A stretch of DNA of 64,000 nt from Acidimicrobiales bacterium (GTDB taxonomy: Bacteria > Actinomycetota > Acidimicrobiia > Acidimicrobiales > SZUA-35): the NCBI GenBank assembly GCA_020630065.1, contig JAHDCC010000008.1, forward strand, positions 91,553 through 155,552. Reading direction: 5' to 3'. Made by a program: the position numbers and the translations under genes. Each line of letters starts with the position of its first letter. The stretch's first letter is position 1. Positions 14,082 through 20,737 of the stretch are shown here, piece after piece. The notes below the pieces were generated by a model that saw only the letters and a list, made by a program, of their open reading frames with translations, had not been told where the DNA came from and searched no databases.

Positions 14082-14830
14082 ATGAACAGATCGCCACTCT
14101 CAAGTGGGGTAGGGGCACAGCCTAAACCCCACGCCGCACTGAACGACAAGATCGTCGCCGACTGGATCCGCCGATCGAAACAAACATCGACCAGCACCCT
14201 GGTAGACGTGCTCGACGGTATGGGCCACCTAGGAGTTCTGAGCCTCCGGTAAAAAGACTTGGCCAGTCCAAAAAAATATTTGCTGGACAAGCCTATTGTG
14301 TTCGCTGGGCGATGGTCCGCAAGACCTCTAATATCGTTGTCCCCCAGTCTTCGACATGGCAACAAGTCCACAAATTCTTGGTCCCGGAACTGCAAGAGGC
14401 TGTGGGACGAGTCTATGTAGCGGGCGCTGGACCGTTGGTCGAAGACGCAGCACTCGCCGGAGGTATCAGCGCAACCTATTTCGCTCAGCTCGGTTTCGAG
14501 GGCCTTGTTCTGGGTGGCGCGATTCGAGACCCGGCCACCCTCGCTGATTTAGATCTGCCGATCACGGCTACCGGTTTCGTCCCGTCCGATACGCAAGGTG
14601 CTTTTCAGGTAACCGAGACGGGGACTTCATGCATGATTGATCATATGACTGTGCACACTGGCGACTGGATTGTCAGTGACGAGGCTGGAACTGTGGTCAT
14701 CCCTCAGGCGATCGTTGAAGACGTTCTGACCAAAGCCGAAGCGTTGGAAGTCGTCGAAGAGCGACTGCTGCAACAGCTTAAGGCAGGGGCCCGTCTTCCT
14801 GAGCTGGTCGAGAAAGCCGAACGGATTTAG
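14082..14830 (+). pseudogene. RraA-like aldolase (HMG aldolase superfamily), interrupted by a frameshift
   Basis: Two frames together make one RraA-family protein. Frame one, from ATG 14082, gives the N-terminus (IRRSKQTSTSTLVDVLDGMGHLGVL) and hits TAA at ~14250. A -1 shift near CCGGTAAAAAG continues as VKRLGQSKKIFAGQAYCVRWAMVRKTSN and runs to 14830 with the core GLVLGGAIRDPATLADLDLPITATGFVP and SDEAGTVVIPQ. Family members are class II pyruvate aldolases acting on 4-hydroxy-4-methyl-2-oxoglutarate-like acids, or RNase E regulators. The ORF track shows only the C-terminal 172 residues. A one-base deletion (true pseudogene or sequencing error) is the simplest reading; the sequence is not a classical slippery site. 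It leads an operon with another pyruvate-aldolase gene. Confidence 0.7.
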
Positions 14831-14893
14831 TCAAACAACCTGGCCTCAGAAAATTGGTTGGGTTCACAGAGCTGCACAAAGAATGGAGAATTC

Positions 14894-15214
14894 ATGGCCG
14901 CGTTCATGATTGCCGAAGTTCACGAAATCTTAGACCTCTCAACTTTTCGTGCATACAACAGCATCGTCCCAGGGATAGTTGCAAAATATGGAGGTCGTTT
15001 CCTCGTTCGAGGAAATGAAAACGAAACCGTCGAAGGAGATTGGGTTCCAGAGCGACTTGTCGTAGTTGAGTTCGACGATATGGCCGCTCTTCGTCGCTGG
15101 TACATGTCTGCTGAATATCAGCAGATTCAACCGCTCCGAGCCAGATCAGCGCGAAGTAACGTGGTATTCGCGGAGGGTTCGCGAGACGAAATAGGCACTG
15201 GCGGGCAAGCATGA
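14894..15214 (+). CDS. DUF1330 family protein
   Basis: A 106-residue ferredoxin-like alpha/beta-barrel protein. FMIAEVHEILDLSTFRAYNSIVPGIVAKYGGRFLVRG followed by ERLVVVEFDDMAALRRWYMSAEYQQIQPLR is the DUF1330 pattern. Biochemical role unknown; such small dimeric proteins often sit in catabolic operons. The start at 14894 has a GGAG upstream, whereas the track start 36 nt earlier lacks support. Its stop overlaps the next ATG (ATGA). Confidence 0.8.
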   Translation: MAAFMIAEVHEILDLSTFRAYNSIVPGIVAKYGGRFLVRGNENETVEGDWVPERLVVVEFDDMAALRRWYMSAEYQQIQPLRARSARSNVVFAEGSRDEIGTGGQA

Positions 15215-16302
15215 AACGGTCGCCCTTGCTGACTCGTTCAGAAATGACGAGATCCGCTTCGTTCTCTGAACATATTGAGAGCGGTGCCGTCTCTTTCATC
15301 TGTCATGCGACGGCGGTTCACGAAGCGGCCGCTATCGACTATTTGAGCGTTCTGGGTCGGTCTGAAATTCCTGTTCAGATTCATGAAGGCTCGCTTGACT
15401 GGGCCGAAATTGCCGCCCACGACGATGACACTGTCGTTCCGTTGTTTTTCATAGCGGCCACGGACTCTGACGTGAGAGAACAATTCTTCGGGCGCCTTCC
15501 GTTGCGGTTCTTCGTCGATCATTTTTATCGTCCCGAGCCTGGGTATGTCTCCAATCGTCTCTTTGTTGTTGGGACAACCGACGCGGCGTGGCAGCGTTTA
15601 GGGTCACCGTCGGCGTTGGCGAGTCCTGAGTCTGTGGGGCGCCGTCTAGAGAAACTGAAGAGCCGGTTTGGGTCGGACTATTTTCACCCGGTGGAGATGG
15701 AACAGGCTTTGCAGAGCAAGTCCCTTCGAACCGTTCGATTGCATGCTCTGGGTTCTGCAGGCACCAATATTGCTCGTGCCAGTTACCGGTTTGTGAAAGC
15801 GCAGAGAATACGAGCTCGCACAGAAATCGTCGTCCATCCGGACAAGGTAGAACCGATGGAATATGCCCAGATCGCAGCGGAAGAACAACGCGACGGTGTG
15901 CTGTCGTTACACACCGAATGCGCCGTCTACTACGAACTTGACCGGCTATTTGAGACTCGGTCGACAGAGCTTGTCTTCGCCTCACACTACTATATGCCGT
16001 TGGACGGAATGCAGTTGGCGACACGGTCCGACAGTCCAGTTGTCACCCGACGAATCGCCTCGCATCCTTCGCCTCAAGGCTTGGTTGAACCATGGGTTCG
16101 TGATGGGGCTGAACTCGTCCACGCATCGTCAAACTCACATGCGGCGGCGATGGTCCTGTCGGGAGAAGCCGATATGTGTGTCACCACCGCTTCAGCTGCG
16201 CATTCGATGGACTTAAAAACCGTCGAGGATTTCGGTTCGCCCACAATGTTATTCACGTTGGGCACGCCGTTAGATGCAGAGCAGATGCGTCAACTTTTTT
16301 AA
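15211..16302 (+). CDS. Protein with C-terminal prephenate dehydratase/BacA-like domain
   Basis: Unusual 363-residue protein. Its C-terminal ~190 residues carry landmarks of the prephenate dehydratase / BacA (prephenate decarboxylase) fold: LHALGSAGTNIARASYRF (compare LGPxGT), SLHTECAVYYELDRLF, IASHPSPQGLVEPW, ASSNSHAAAMVLSGEADMCVTTASAA. The N-terminal ~165 residues have no match I recognise, although FICHATAVHEAAAIDYLSVLG could be a second, degenerate half. In an operon with two aldolase-type genes a role in aromatic or oxo-acid breakdown is possible. It is coupled to DUF1330 by an ATGA overlap. The fold is moderately supported; the reaction is unknown. Confidence 0.55.
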   Translation: MKRSPLLTRSEMTRSASFSEHIESGAVSFICHATAVHEAAAIDYLSVLGRSEIPVQIHEGSLDWAEIAAHDDDTVVPLFFIAATDSDVREQFFGRLPLRFFVDHFYRPEPGYVSNRLFVVGTTDAAWQRLGSPSALASPESVGRRLEKLKSRFGSDYFHPVEMEQALQSKSLRTVRLHALGSAGTNIARASYRFVKAQRIRARTEIVVHPDKVEPMEYAQIAAEEQRDGVLSLHTECAVYYELDRLFETRSTELVFASHYYMPLDGMQLATRSDSPVVTRRIASHPSPQGLVEPWVRDGAELVHASSNSHAAAMVLSGEADMCVTTASAAHSMDLKTVEDFGSPTMLFTLGTPLDAEQMRQLF

Positions 16303-16323
16303 CACCAATCGAAAGGGATGCCA

Positions 16324-17103
16324 ATGGCCCGCATTAACTTTGCAAAGCAACGACTAGCAGATGGTAAACCGATCACGATTCTTGTCGTCACGATGCCCAG
16401 TGTCGCTCACGCCCAACTTTGGGCTAACTCCGGAGTTGACGTTCTTATCTTTGATATGGAACACGGCGTGATTGACATTTCGTCGCTTCACGCCATGATT
16501 GCGGCGACGGCGGGAACCGAAACGACCCCAATGGTTCGTGTACCGTGGAATGAACCTTGGTTGGTGAAACCGGTACTCGACGCTGGAGCCCTCGGAATAA
16601 TGTTCCCGCTTGTCGCTACGGCCCAGGACGTAGAACGAGCTGTTTCGTCGATGTACTACCCGCCGAAAGGTGAACGAGGGTGGGGCCCGTTTATGACGCA
16701 GTACCGTTGGGGAATGCCGCACCACGAATACGTTGCTCAAGCCAACGAAGAGATGTTGACATTCATCCAGATAGAGCGGCCCGAAGCCGTCGAAAATTTG
16801 GACGAGATTATGCAAGTCCCCGATGTCGACATGTTTGTCATTTCGCGTCACGACATGAGCACGAGCATGGGCAAAATAGCCAGCCCCACCCATGATTTAG
16901 ACCCCGAAGCGCAGGCGGCCGTCGACCAGATGGAAGCCAAACTCCTTGCCGCTGAGGCTCCAGTAGCGGGACTAACCCGAGACTTGAGGGCGGCTAAAAA
17001 TCAGCGAGAAAAAAACTATCAAGGTCTCATCCTCGGGTTTGATTGGATGCTGCTGGAACGAAGCGCCGGGATCGCCACCCAAATACGCGAACACGTTAGT
17101 TGA
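16324..17103 (+). CDS. HpcH/HpaI family aldolase
   Basis: Class II metal-dependent aldolase that cleaves 2-keto-3-deoxy or 4-hydroxy-2-oxo acids to pyruvate plus an aldehyde. Family motifs are DVLIFDMEHGVID (metal/pyruvate site Glu), MVRVPWNEPWLVKPVLDAGALGIMFPLV and FIQIERPEAVENLDEI with the metal-ligand Glu, then a conserved Asp near DVDMF. The YPPKGERGWG segment is typical. The start at 16324 has AAAGGG 6 nt upstream; the track ATG at 16318 overlaps that site. It is linked closely to the genes on both sides. Confidence 0.85.
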   Translation: MARINFAKQRLADGKPITILVVTMPSVAHAQLWANSGVDVLIFDMEHGVIDISSLHAMIAATAGTETTPMVRVPWNEPWLVKPVLDAGALGIMFPLVATAQDVERAVSSMYYPPKGERGWGPFMTQYRWGMPHHEYVAQANEEMLTFIQIERPEAVENLDEIMQVPDVDMFVISRHDMSTSMGKIASPTHDLDPEAQAAVDQMEAKLLAAEAPVAGLTRDLRAAKNQREKNYQGLILGFDWMLLERSAGIATQIREHVS

Positions 17104-17936
17104 ACCCTGGTGTGGTTCGGAACCTCGTTGACGCTGCGACCCTGTCAGGGATAATAGAGCTTTTCGATTCAGAGTTTGTTGGTGCCGTTTTCCGCTACGG
17201 GCTACTTCTAGCAGGCGGCGTAGTTTCGGGCGTGGTTAACGCTGTGGCCGGTGGCGGGTCGATAGTGTTGGTGCCGATCTTGTTGGCATCGGGGCTCCCA
17301 CCATCGGTTGCTAACGGCACGCTTCGGGTAAGTGTCCTGGCGCAGTCGGCTACGTCGGCATGGACGTTTCAGCGCCGAGGTGTGCGCTCTGATCGGTCGC
17401 TCATGTGGCTAGGCGTTCCGATCATTATCGGAGCAGGAGTGGGGAGTTTTACCGCTACGCAGGTTTCAGATCAGGCGCTGCGGGTAGTCTTCGGAGCATT
17501 GTTTGTGCTGTTGGGTTTGTACCTAGGGTTTCGCCGCGGTGCCCCGTTGGAACGGTCGGATGGTCCGCCATCGGGAGTCCAATGGAAGACGGTGCTCGGG
17601 GCGCTAGCGGTCGGCGGGTACGGTGGATTGATTCAGGCTGGGGTCGGGTTCCCGCTCATCGCTCTTCTGGTGGGAAGTGCCGGTTGTAGCATTGTGGAAG
17701 CCAACGCAGTCAAAGTTCGTTTTGTTGCCGCCTACTCGGCGGTGGCACTCATAATTTTTGCGTTGGCCGATTTGGTGGCTTGGACCGAAGGCTCAGTGGT
17801 TGCGGTCGGAGGGTTTATCGGTGGTTGGCTCGGGGTTCGCCTCCAGCTAAAAATATCGGCGCGTTGGTTGCAGCGGTTTATAATCGCTGCGTTGTTGGTT
17901 AGCGGGCTGGCCATGATCTTGCGAACATTTGTGTGA
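17100..17936 (+). CDS. TSUP family transporter (TauE/SafE-like)
   Basis: An integral membrane protein of 278 residues with about seven to eight hydrophobic segments. The two TSUP motifs are present: AGGVVSGVVNAVAGGGSIVLVPIL near the start and GALAVGGYGGLIQAGVGFPLIALL in the second half. The family exports or imports sulfonates, sulfite or organic acids. It overlaps the aldolase stop (TTG start at 17100; GTG starts a few codons on are alternatives) and so probably moves a substrate or product of this operon. Confidence 0.82.
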   Translation: MNPGVVRNLVDAATLSGIIELFDSEFVGAVFRYGLLLAGGVVSGVVNAVAGGGSIVLVPILLASGLPPSVANGTLRVSVLAQSATSAWTFQRRGVRSDRSLMWLGVPIIIGAGVGSFTATQVSDQALRVVFGALFVLLGLYLGFRRGAPLERSDGPPSGVQWKTVLGALAVGGYGGLIQAGVGFPLIALLVGSAGCSIVEANAVKVRFVAAYSAVALIIFALADLVAWTEGSVVAVGGFIGGWLGVRLQLKISARWLQRFIIAALLVSGLAMILRTFV

Positions 17937-17958: not shown

Positions 17959-18933
17959 TTATGGCACCAGAATGGTTGATCCGGTGGTGCTTCGGGATTC
18001 AAGCGCCCGGTGGGCGTCCACCGCGTCAGCCAATGCGAAACGCTGACCGATGTCGACGGTAATCACGTTTTGTCGAACGAGGTCAAACGCAGCGTTGGCG
18101 CTTCGACGTAAATCTTCGCTGCTGGCCACATAGTCGAACAGTCGAGGGCGGGTAACTTGTAGCGATCCGCCCTCGGCGAGCGCCCCAATATCGAAAGGGT
18201 CGGGTTTGCCTGATGAGTTACCGAAACTTACCAGTAGGCCGCGGGGCTGTAGACAGTTGAGGGACTGGGTAAACGTTGCTTTGCCAACCGAGTCATAGAC
18301 AACGGGAACACCCTTGCCGTCAGTGATTTCTTCAACCCGTTCTACAAAGTCTTCTTCGGTGTAAATCACCGGGTAGGTGCATCCATTGGAACGAGCCAGG
18401 TCGGCCTTTGCCTGGCTGCTGACCGTCCCGATGACTGTCGCCCCAAGGTGGGCTAACCACTGGCAGGCTACAAGCCCTACGCCGCCGGCTGCTGCGTGGA
18501 GCAGAACTGTCATTCCTGACTCGACACGAAACGTTTGGCGGACAAGATATTCGACTGTCAGCGCCTTGAGTAACACGGCGGCGGCGACATCGTCGTCTAT
18601 GTCGTCGGGCAACGGGACGAGGTGTTCAGCGTTGTGTGTGCGGCGTTCCGAATACGCTTCGGGTGGCCCGTGTATGTAGGCGACCCGGTCGCCTGGTTTG
18701 ATTCTTTCGACGTTATTGCCTACCGCTTCGACTACGCCTGAAGCTTCGAGTCCGAGTCCGTGTGGGTGGGGGAGCGGGTAGAGGCCGCTGCGATGATAGG
18801 TGTCAATAAAGTTGATGCCGATAGCGGTATGGCGAACCACAGCTTCGCCATCTCCTGGGGTGGGATCGTCGACCTTTTCGAACCGCATAACGTCTGGACC
18901 GCCGGGTTCGTAAATCCTTATAGCGTGCGTCAT
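17959..18933 (-). CDS. NADPH:quinone oxidoreductase (zeta-crystallin-like MDR)
   Basis: A zinc-free medium-chain dehydrogenase of 324 residues. IGINFIDTYHRSGLYPLPHPHGLGLEASGVVEAVG and LLHAAAGGVGLVACQWLAHLGATVIGTVSS (cofactor loop AAGGVG) match the quinone reductase branch (Qor). It reduces quinones or enals with NADPH in the cytoplasm. It is convergent with the TSUP gene and has no obvious partner. Confidence 0.9.
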   Translation of the reverse strand: MTHAIRIYEPGGPDVMRFEKVDDPTPGDGEAVVRHTAIGINFIDTYHRSGLYPLPHPHGLGLEASGVVEAVGNNVERIKPGDRVAYIHGPPEAYSERRTHNAEHLVPLPDDIDDDVAAAVLLKALTVEYLVRQTFRVESGMTVLLHAAAGGVGLVACQWLAHLGATVIGTVSSQAKADLARSNGCTYPVIYTEEDFVERVEEITDGKGVPVVYDSVGKATFTQSLNCLQPRGLLVSFGNSSGKPDPFDIGALAEGGSLQVTRPRLFDYVASSEDLRRSANAAFDLVRQNVITVDIGQRFALADAVDAHRALESRSTTGSTILVP

Positions 18934-19571: not shown

Positions 19572-20063
19572 CTAGATGGTTGGCGGGGCGAATGGTTCGC
19601 GGAACGTGAACGCTTCAGAGGTCGGGCCGTTGTCCCTCAAATGAAGCAGTTTCGTTCGCGCCTGTTCTAGGGTCGGGATCGTTCCCGCTGGCGTCCACCA
19701 CAAAACCAGAACCGGAAGGTCTTCCACAGGCTCAAACCATTCTCGACGTCGTTTCAGAAACTGGACGTGGTCAGTCTTGTACGTGTAGTTCTGTAACGAT
19801 TCGACAGACTCCCAAATGGTGTAGTTGATGAGGATGAGCGGATCTTCGAACATACGCACACTGGTTGAATCTCCGTCATCGGTGCTGTGACGCCAGACGG
19901 CTCCCGGAGACTCGTCACCGAGTTTATTGATCCGTTCAAGAGCGTTCATGAACGGCGCCATCCGGTCATCGTCGGTTTCGAATTTGGCTCGAGCGATATT
20001 GAACGCTGCTAGATGCCAGTCCGTTTGTGGGCCCCTTAAGGTTGAGCCGTCGGATACGGTCAT
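19572..20063 (-). CDS. DUF3291 family protein
   Basis: A 163-residue protein with the DUF3291 layout: WHLAAFNIARAKF, ALERINKLGDESPGAVWRH, LINYTIWESVESLQNYTYKTDHVQFLKRRREWFEP and LVLWWTPAGTIPTLEQARTKL. The domain is a dimeric alpha/beta barrel related to ABM proteins and has no fixed function. Its ATG overlaps the stop of the CDGSH gene (ATGA), so the two are translated together. Confidence 0.82.
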   Translation of the reverse strand: MTVSDGSTLRGPQTDWHLAAFNIARAKFETDDDRMAPFMNALERINKLGDESPGAVWRHSTDDGDSTSVRMFEDPLILINYTIWESVESLQNYTYKTDHVQFLKRRREWFEPVEDLPVLVLWWTPAGTIPTLEQARTKLLHLRDNGPTSEAFTFREPFAPPTI

Positions 20064-20737
20064 TCCGAAACGGAATCAGTGAAACCGGCGTCTTTATGGG
20101 AGCCATCGCATAGCGGTTTGTTGGCGCTCGCTCCGCAGCGACATAACGTCACTCGGTTTCTGGGTTCTAAGACGTCGCCAGCCGAGTTCGTGATCTTCAC
20201 CGATCCGGTTACCCAGAGCGGGCCATCGTCGACGATCCCGACTTGTTGCGGGTAGTCGGGTTCGGTGTCTTGAGTGTCGCCGTCAAATTTGTACGTCAGC
20301 GCCCCGGATGGGCACTTCTCAACCTCGTTGATAATCGCTAGGCGAACCATCGTGTCGTCAGAAGAGTCGACCTGTTTCCAAACGTTACTGTGTCGGTTCC
20401 CGCAGAAACCAGCGTGCATGCAAATACTTCGATCATCCGAGACAGTAATGCCAGTACCGCCCAACTCGGAAGAACGTTCCTCATACGTCGAATCCGAGAA
20501 CGTGTCTACCCCTTCGAACCCGGCCCCAGTGTGGGCGCCGTCGCAAAACGGTTTGTTCTCGCTAGCTCCACACCGGCAAAGGGCGTAACTGGCTCGGTCA
20601 GTCACGGGTTCGGAGGTTTTCCATGCCAACGGCTCACCGTGTTCTGAATGGACAGGGGTTTTGCGGACAAGTGGAAGTTGCCCACTGACCATCAACGGTC
20701 CGCTGACGCGGCTTGTTATCTCTGGCTGCTCACTCAT
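20060..20737 (-). CDS. Double CDGSH iron-sulfur protein with a central ferredoxin-like Fe-S domain
   Basis: Three metal modules sit in 225 residues. CDGSH motifs occur at both ends (LCRCGASENKPFCDGAH near residues 52-70 and LCRCGASANKPLCDGSH near 200-216); each C-x-C-x10-CDGxH set binds a 2Fe-2S cluster. Between them is a divergent Fer4-like domain (CMHAGFCG ... EKCPSGALTYKFDGD). Together they suggest an electron-transfer or cluster-transfer protein. It is translationally coupled to the DUF3291 gene downstream. Confidence 0.85.
   Translation of the reverse strand: MSEQPEITSRVSGPLMVSGQLPLVRKTPVHSEHGEPLAWKTSEPVTDRASYALCRCGASENKPFCDGAHTGAGFEGVDTFSDSTYEERSSELGGTGITVSDDRSICMHAGFCGNRHSNVWKQVDSSDDTMVRLAIINEVEKCPSGALTYKFDGDTQDTEPDYPQQVGIVDDGPLWVTGSVKITNSAGDVLEPRNRVTLCRCGASANKPLCDGSHKDAGFTDSVSE

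Follow-up and report, generated by a model that had tools for sequence, protein, structure and literature searches.

What chemistry could unite an RraA-like gene, an HpcH/HpaI-type aldolase homologue, a protein with the fold of prephenate dehydratase (PDT) and a putative exporter in one compact operon is the question raised by positions 14082–17936 of the DNA analysed here, a stretch of 64,000 nucleotides (the window) from a host genome of 3.7 Mb in 81 contigs. The region holds a run of five co-directional genes separated by short gaps or overlaps, the first of which is split between two reading frames:

14082–14249, plus strand: N-terminal part of the RraA-like gene (translation; alignment with 13 homologues continuous there)
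14240–14830, plus strand: remainder of the RraA-like gene in the other frame (PF03737; alignment with homologues)
14894–15214, plus strand: DUF1330 protein of 106 aa, operon member (PF07045, 7e-28)
15211–16302, plus strand: two-part PDT-like protein of 363 aa (PF00800, 1.2e-4, under the curated cut-off)
16318–17103, plus strand: HpcH/HpaI-type class II aldolase homologue (PF03328, 1.9e-30)
17100–17936, plus strand: TauE/SafE (TSUP) membrane protein, likely an exporter (PF01925 along its full length, 7.4e-42, 144 bits)

The five genes, their order and their tight spacing agree with the initial annotation, with one correction: the RraA gene is not intact. Given spacings of 63 bp, a 4-bp overlap, 15 bp and another 4-bp overlap, in gene order, co-transcription of the five genes is likely. 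The run is closed by a convergent quinone-oxidoreductase-type gene (17959–18933, minus strand), located 22 bp past the operon end, and in G+C content the operon genes (51–58%) match the window as a whole (54.5 ± 2% per kb). An Rfam search of the operon region returned no match, promoter-like matches in the region did not exceed chance, and the terminator-like matches (10 found, 5.2 ± 2.2 expected) lay mostly within genes. Further along the window, on the minus strand, a protein with CDGSH-like CRCGAS-NKP-CDGSH motifs (20060–20737) is encoded next to a DUF3291 protein (19572–20063), and these two genes apparently form one operon (19572–20737).

The frameshift in the RraA-like gene falls between about 14235 and 14250. 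The frame starting at ATG 14082 encodes the RraA N-terminus, residues 1–56 (MNRSPL...STLVDVLDGMGHLGVL; STSTLVDVLDGMGHLGVL), and closes at TAA 14250; the rest is encoded from about 14240 in a different frame, whose first in-frame ATG, at 14312, opens an ORF of 172 aa. When aligned, 13 of 13 RraA homologues were uninterrupted across this junction. An assembly error is a possible cause, but because the junction lies upstream of both nearby poly-A runs (at 14251 and about 14270), a homopolymer error is not an obvious one. A programmed −1 frameshift was also considered and rejected, as no slippery heptamer precedes TAA 14250.

What remains of the gene identifies its family clearly. It matches PF03737 (4e-18, 66.5 bits), and the catalytic and metal-binding Arg-Asp pair, R123-D124 in the Pseudomonas putida enzyme, is kept, as IRD in the window protein and as VRD or IRD in 13 of 13 homologues; the known chemistry of RraA-type enzymes is the formation of a pyruvate enolate (PMC5065237). 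Compared to the HMG/CHA aldolases and the RraA family at large (PF03737), with which it has the fold family and the R-D pair in common, the frameshifted window copy falls into a separate subfamily, marked by AALAGG, PTDTQGA and ARLPELI motifs and by a Gly 21 residues ahead of the catalytic Arg. Whereas its best matches in the window's own family reach just 25–34% identity, it is 48–55% identical to RraA homologues that adjoin PDT-like genes elsewhere, which places it in a PDT-linked subfamily.

The PDT-like partner is likewise an outlier of its family. The C-terminal half of the 363-aa protein (about residues 175–353) is a TdaC/BacA-like PDT-fold domain that scores 22.4 bits against PF00800, under the curated cut-off of 25.2, and does not reach the NCBIfam cut-offs for prephenate dehydratase either; some single-domain relatives do exceed the PF00800 cut-off (for example locus L058, 35.8 bits). 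With canonical prephenate dehydratase (PheA) it shares the fold and GT/HP/SN-type residues. However, alignment with canonical PDTs revealed that their catalytic TRF motif is replaced by TML (SPTMLFTLG). Three canonical PDTs carry TRF, among them the separate PheA-like enzyme encoded by the host; the window protein and its relatives lack it, a loss that disfavours an aromatising dehydration. The ACT regulatory domain is absent as well, the protein stopping directly after the PDT domain. The invariant residues of the TdaC-like family (L-G-x-x-GTN, HP-P, SN-AA, C-TT and G-M) are all kept in the alignment.

Of the named families, the one found to be closest in sequence is TdaC, of Phaeobacter, Tritonibacter and Pseudovibrio, which is about 30–33% identical to the C-terminal half and, equally devoid of TRF, has the HTLGP-GTN, SHPSP/THPAP, SN and C-TT signature in common with it. 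TdaC differs in being a single-domain protein of about 200 aa, encoded beside GST, thioesterase and acyl-CoA dehydrogenase genes and not beside RraA, whereas the window protein has an extra N-terminal half and a 7-residue insert. TdaC relatives serve the synthesis of tropodithietic acid, the precursor of which is not simply prephenate. The earlier label 'BacA-like' captures the fold and the loss of the dehydratase motif, in which the window protein resembles BacA of bacilysin synthesis; a search of the Bacillus atrophaeus genome did not retrieve BacA. The partner of BacA, BacB, is a cupin, and a cupin also accompanies the gammaproteobacterial modules described below but not the window operon. 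The bac operon has neither RraA nor DAHP synthase, unlike the four-gene cassette of those modules. BacA itself uses the PDT fold to decarboxylate prephenate without aromatisation, after which BacB shifts the double bonds (PMC9147277).

The N-terminal half had been thought to be a novel domain. In the AlphaFold2 model of the 363-aa protein (mean pLDDT 80, pTM 0.76; 64–68 for the other four models), the predicted secondary structure runs E-H-E-H-E-H-E-E in residues 28–122 and recurs in identical order in residues 175–271, pointing instead to a repeat of lobe I of the C-terminal half. At the sequence level the support is weak: Smith-Waterman alignment of the two halves found the same register (46–111 vs 200–266) with a score that 1.4% of shuffles reach, profile-profile comparison with HHalign gave a P of about 0.017 and a probability of 1%, and in a second full-length homologue the halves do not show this register. 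Because the N-terminal half, modelled alone from two sequences, reached a pLDDT of 40, the case for a duplicated lobe depends on the full-length model together with the shuffle test (0.014). That the N-terminal half is a second, degenerate version of PDT lobe I is moderately supported.

Foldseek searches with this model retrieved tandem periplasmic-binding-type proteins as well as the prephenate dehydratases 6vh5, 3mwb and 2qmx, so that both AlphaFold2 and Foldseek support a PDT fold. Neither the protein nor the family profile found a relevant match in sequence searches of the PDB, and the N-terminal half had no match among plasmids. The top Foldseek match was the tandem two-Venus-flytrap sensor BvgS (4q0c, 381 columns). 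Together with the missing TRF, this match could suggest that the protein is no enzyme but a two-lobed, ligand-binding regulator with the periplasmic-binding-protein type II fold, serving the aldolases as a sensor of an aromatic or 2-oxo acid. We consider such a role very unlikely, given the low TM-scores to BvgS (0.34), the lack of a DNA-binding or membrane domain and the properties of the single-domain relatives, which keep the invariant pocket-like residues GTN, HP, SN and TT and reside in biosynthetic clusters.

We then asked how widely this architecture is distributed. Searches of the 38 other genomes from the window's family did not recover the 363-aa protein, about 395 sampled genomes of the class yielded one single-domain relative and no full-length protein, and single-sequence patterns detected no close relative in viral contigs or in 84,980 GTDB genomes. 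A GTDB-wide scan recovered 60 relatives, 59 of which align just with the C-terminal half, a few including a short stretch before it; the sole match spanning both halves is a Candidatus Daviesbacteria protein. With a second full-length homologue of 424 aa, encoded in another Patescibacteria genome of the same class, full-length relatives are known from two Patescibacteria genomes only. In a midpoint-rooted tree, these two proteins and the window protein form their own clade with 100/100 support, outside the RraA-linked single-domain clades, which suggests that the reaction of the two-part protein may differ from that of its RraA-linked single-domain relatives. At the locus of the 424-aa homologue (L071:4562-7940), a DAHP synthase gene is followed by the two-part PDT-like gene, which overlaps a prephenate dehydrogenase gene. 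Neither of the two Patescibacteria genomes yielded a canonical PDT, nor was an RraA neighbour found beside either two-part gene. We see in the L071 operon an unusual remnant of the aromatic pathway, retained by a reduced genome.

Such a sporadic distribution, combined with the RraA frameshift, could indicate that the window operon is a horizontally acquired passenger in decay, its RraA already a pseudogene and the other genes no longer sharing a function. This explanation appears improbable to us: the four other reading frames are uninterrupted, conservation of the 172-aa RraA remainder extends to its end, the base composition of the operon does not deviate from its surroundings, and the frameshift itself is possibly an assembly artefact.

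A search for the window proteins by tblastn at 67 loci of relatives (flanks of up to 8 kb, some contigs being short) revealed which part of the operon is conserved. A close RraA homologue (48–55% identity, E 1e-41 to 1e-54) adjoins the single-domain PDT-like gene in 13 of 60 public loci, from two phyla and from genera including Yersinia, Serratia, Aeromonas, Acinetobacter, Buttiauxella, Streptomyces and Actinoplanes. The gene order differs between the groups, with RraA lying first, about 26 bp upstream of the PDT-like gene, in six gammaproteobacterial loci, and second, overlapping or close to it, in seven actinobacterial loci. In gammaproteobacteria, the pair is followed by a cupin and, in most cases, a class II DAHP synthase, an enzyme that opens the shikimate pathway, giving a four-gene cassette. 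One such compact block of RraA, PDT-like, cupin and class II DAHP synthase genes lies between plsY and tsaD in Proteus mirabilis (NZ_OL790811.1, L132:6977-10166). Although deposited as a plasmid, this 4-Mb record carries plsY, tsaD and dnaG, and is thus a chromosome. The actinobacterial pairs reside inside NRPS clusters or close to them, accompanied by quinone-oxidoreductase-type, aminotransferase, cupin and DAHP synthase genes. By contrast, no homologue of HpcH, DUF1330 or TSUP was detected in the flanks of the 67 loci. Many homologues of HpcH and RraA occur within the window's family (up to 39% and 34% identity, respectively) but not next to each other, so the pairing of two pyruvate-aldolase families noted at first is not borne out. 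Judged by these comparisons, RraA and the PDT-like gene form a genuine conserved unit, to which HpcH, DUF1330 and TSUP are local additions. Gene co-occurrence in other genomes thus extends to the pair and not to the whole operon. The initial impression of an unfamiliar pathway is upheld for this pair, adjacent as it is in distant phyla, and a full-text literature search, with subscription papers outside its scope, returned no description of an RraA-PDT module.

Other relatives of the PDT-like protein occur in further settings. In 35 loci, the single-domain gene is paired with DUF6421, mostly together with ATP-grasp genes, in what looks like a widespread small-peptide pathway; these loci (L003, L004, L006, L010-L012, L014-L016, L019, L022, L027-L030 and others) belong to Actinobacteria, Proteobacteria and Bacilli. 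About ten loci are tropodithietic-acid clusters. All contexts of the PDT-like relatives are biosynthetic.

These contexts bear directly on the proposal that the operon serves aromatic breakdown. In a catabolic operon, the RraA- and HpcH-type aldolases would be successive lyases in the degradation of a 2-oxo acid, either aromatic or sugar-derived. The PDT-like protein would in that case dehydrate or decarboxylate an intermediate of ring cleavage. The HpcH homologue is about 35% identical to the 4-hydroxy-2-oxoheptanedioate aldolase HpaI/HpcH and keeps its active-site His, Arg, Glu and Asp, which would suit such a function, as would the intact R-D pair of RraA and the FAA-hydrolase and HMGL-like genes near the RraA-PDT pair in Actinoplanes (L051). 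However, its score of 155 bits is far under the HpaI equivalog cut-off of 369 bits, and the pyruvate-binding loop GPADLS (GP[AS]DLS), of which GP-D is kept in 24 of 24 family homologues compared, reads SRHDMS. From this altered loop, the substrate of the window homologue probably differs from that of HpaI. Moreover, ring-cleavage dioxygenase and CoA-ligase are both missing from the operon, HpcH stands outside the conserved module, and the conserved partners of the pair (DAHP synthases, cupin, prephenate dehydrogenase, aminotransferases and NRPS genes) indicate biosynthesis from prephenate. A catabolic role is hence unlikely.

We favour, with roughly balanced confidence, the reading that the window operon is a divergent, partly decayed small biosynthetic module, in which a TRF-less PDT-fold enzyme acting on prephenate is combined with a dedicated RraA-type enzyme. 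The PDT-fold enzyme, having lost the catalytic residues of a dehydratase, would probably convert prephenate, or a closely related compound, in a non-aromatising reaction like that of BacA. The target of the metal-dependent RraA-type enzyme would then be the pyruvyl (2-oxo acid) side chain in the resulting product, which it would enolise or cleave at a C-C bond. In the full modules, carbon would be supplied by the DAHP synthase and the ring probably isomerised by the cupin, in the manner of BacB; in the window, the HpcH-like aldolase and the DUF1330 protein would be tailoring components added at this locus, and export would fall to the TSUP protein. For a cassette that combines a PDT-like protein and a cupin with a DAHP synthase of its own, the simplest product would be a prephenate-derived 2-oxo acid. 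The window operon has no gene for DAHP synthase, cupin or aminotransferase, which counts against a prephenate module at this locus. Also against it stand the RraA frameshift, the placement of the two-part protein in a clade of its own, the lack of an RraA neighbour in the two Patescibacteria genomes and the role of TdaC relatives in tropodithietic acid synthesis. More tentatively, the RraA and TRF-less PDT-fold proteins, with cupin and DAHP synthase, could constitute an unrecognised branch from prephenate, encoded by a compact cassette across Proteobacteria and Actinobacteria and including an RraA step outside known RraA chemistry; the version in the window would then be a divergent one, its PDT-like enzyme having acquired an extra lobe by duplication.

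The RraA-PDT pair is apparently undescribed, and the window carries a divergent, possibly damaged copy of it. In organisms that do not degrade aromatics, RraA-type proteins rank with the most widespread enzymes whose role is unclear, and the cross-phylum pairing with a prephenate-type enzyme and DAHP synthase offers a testable pathway for one RraA subfamily.
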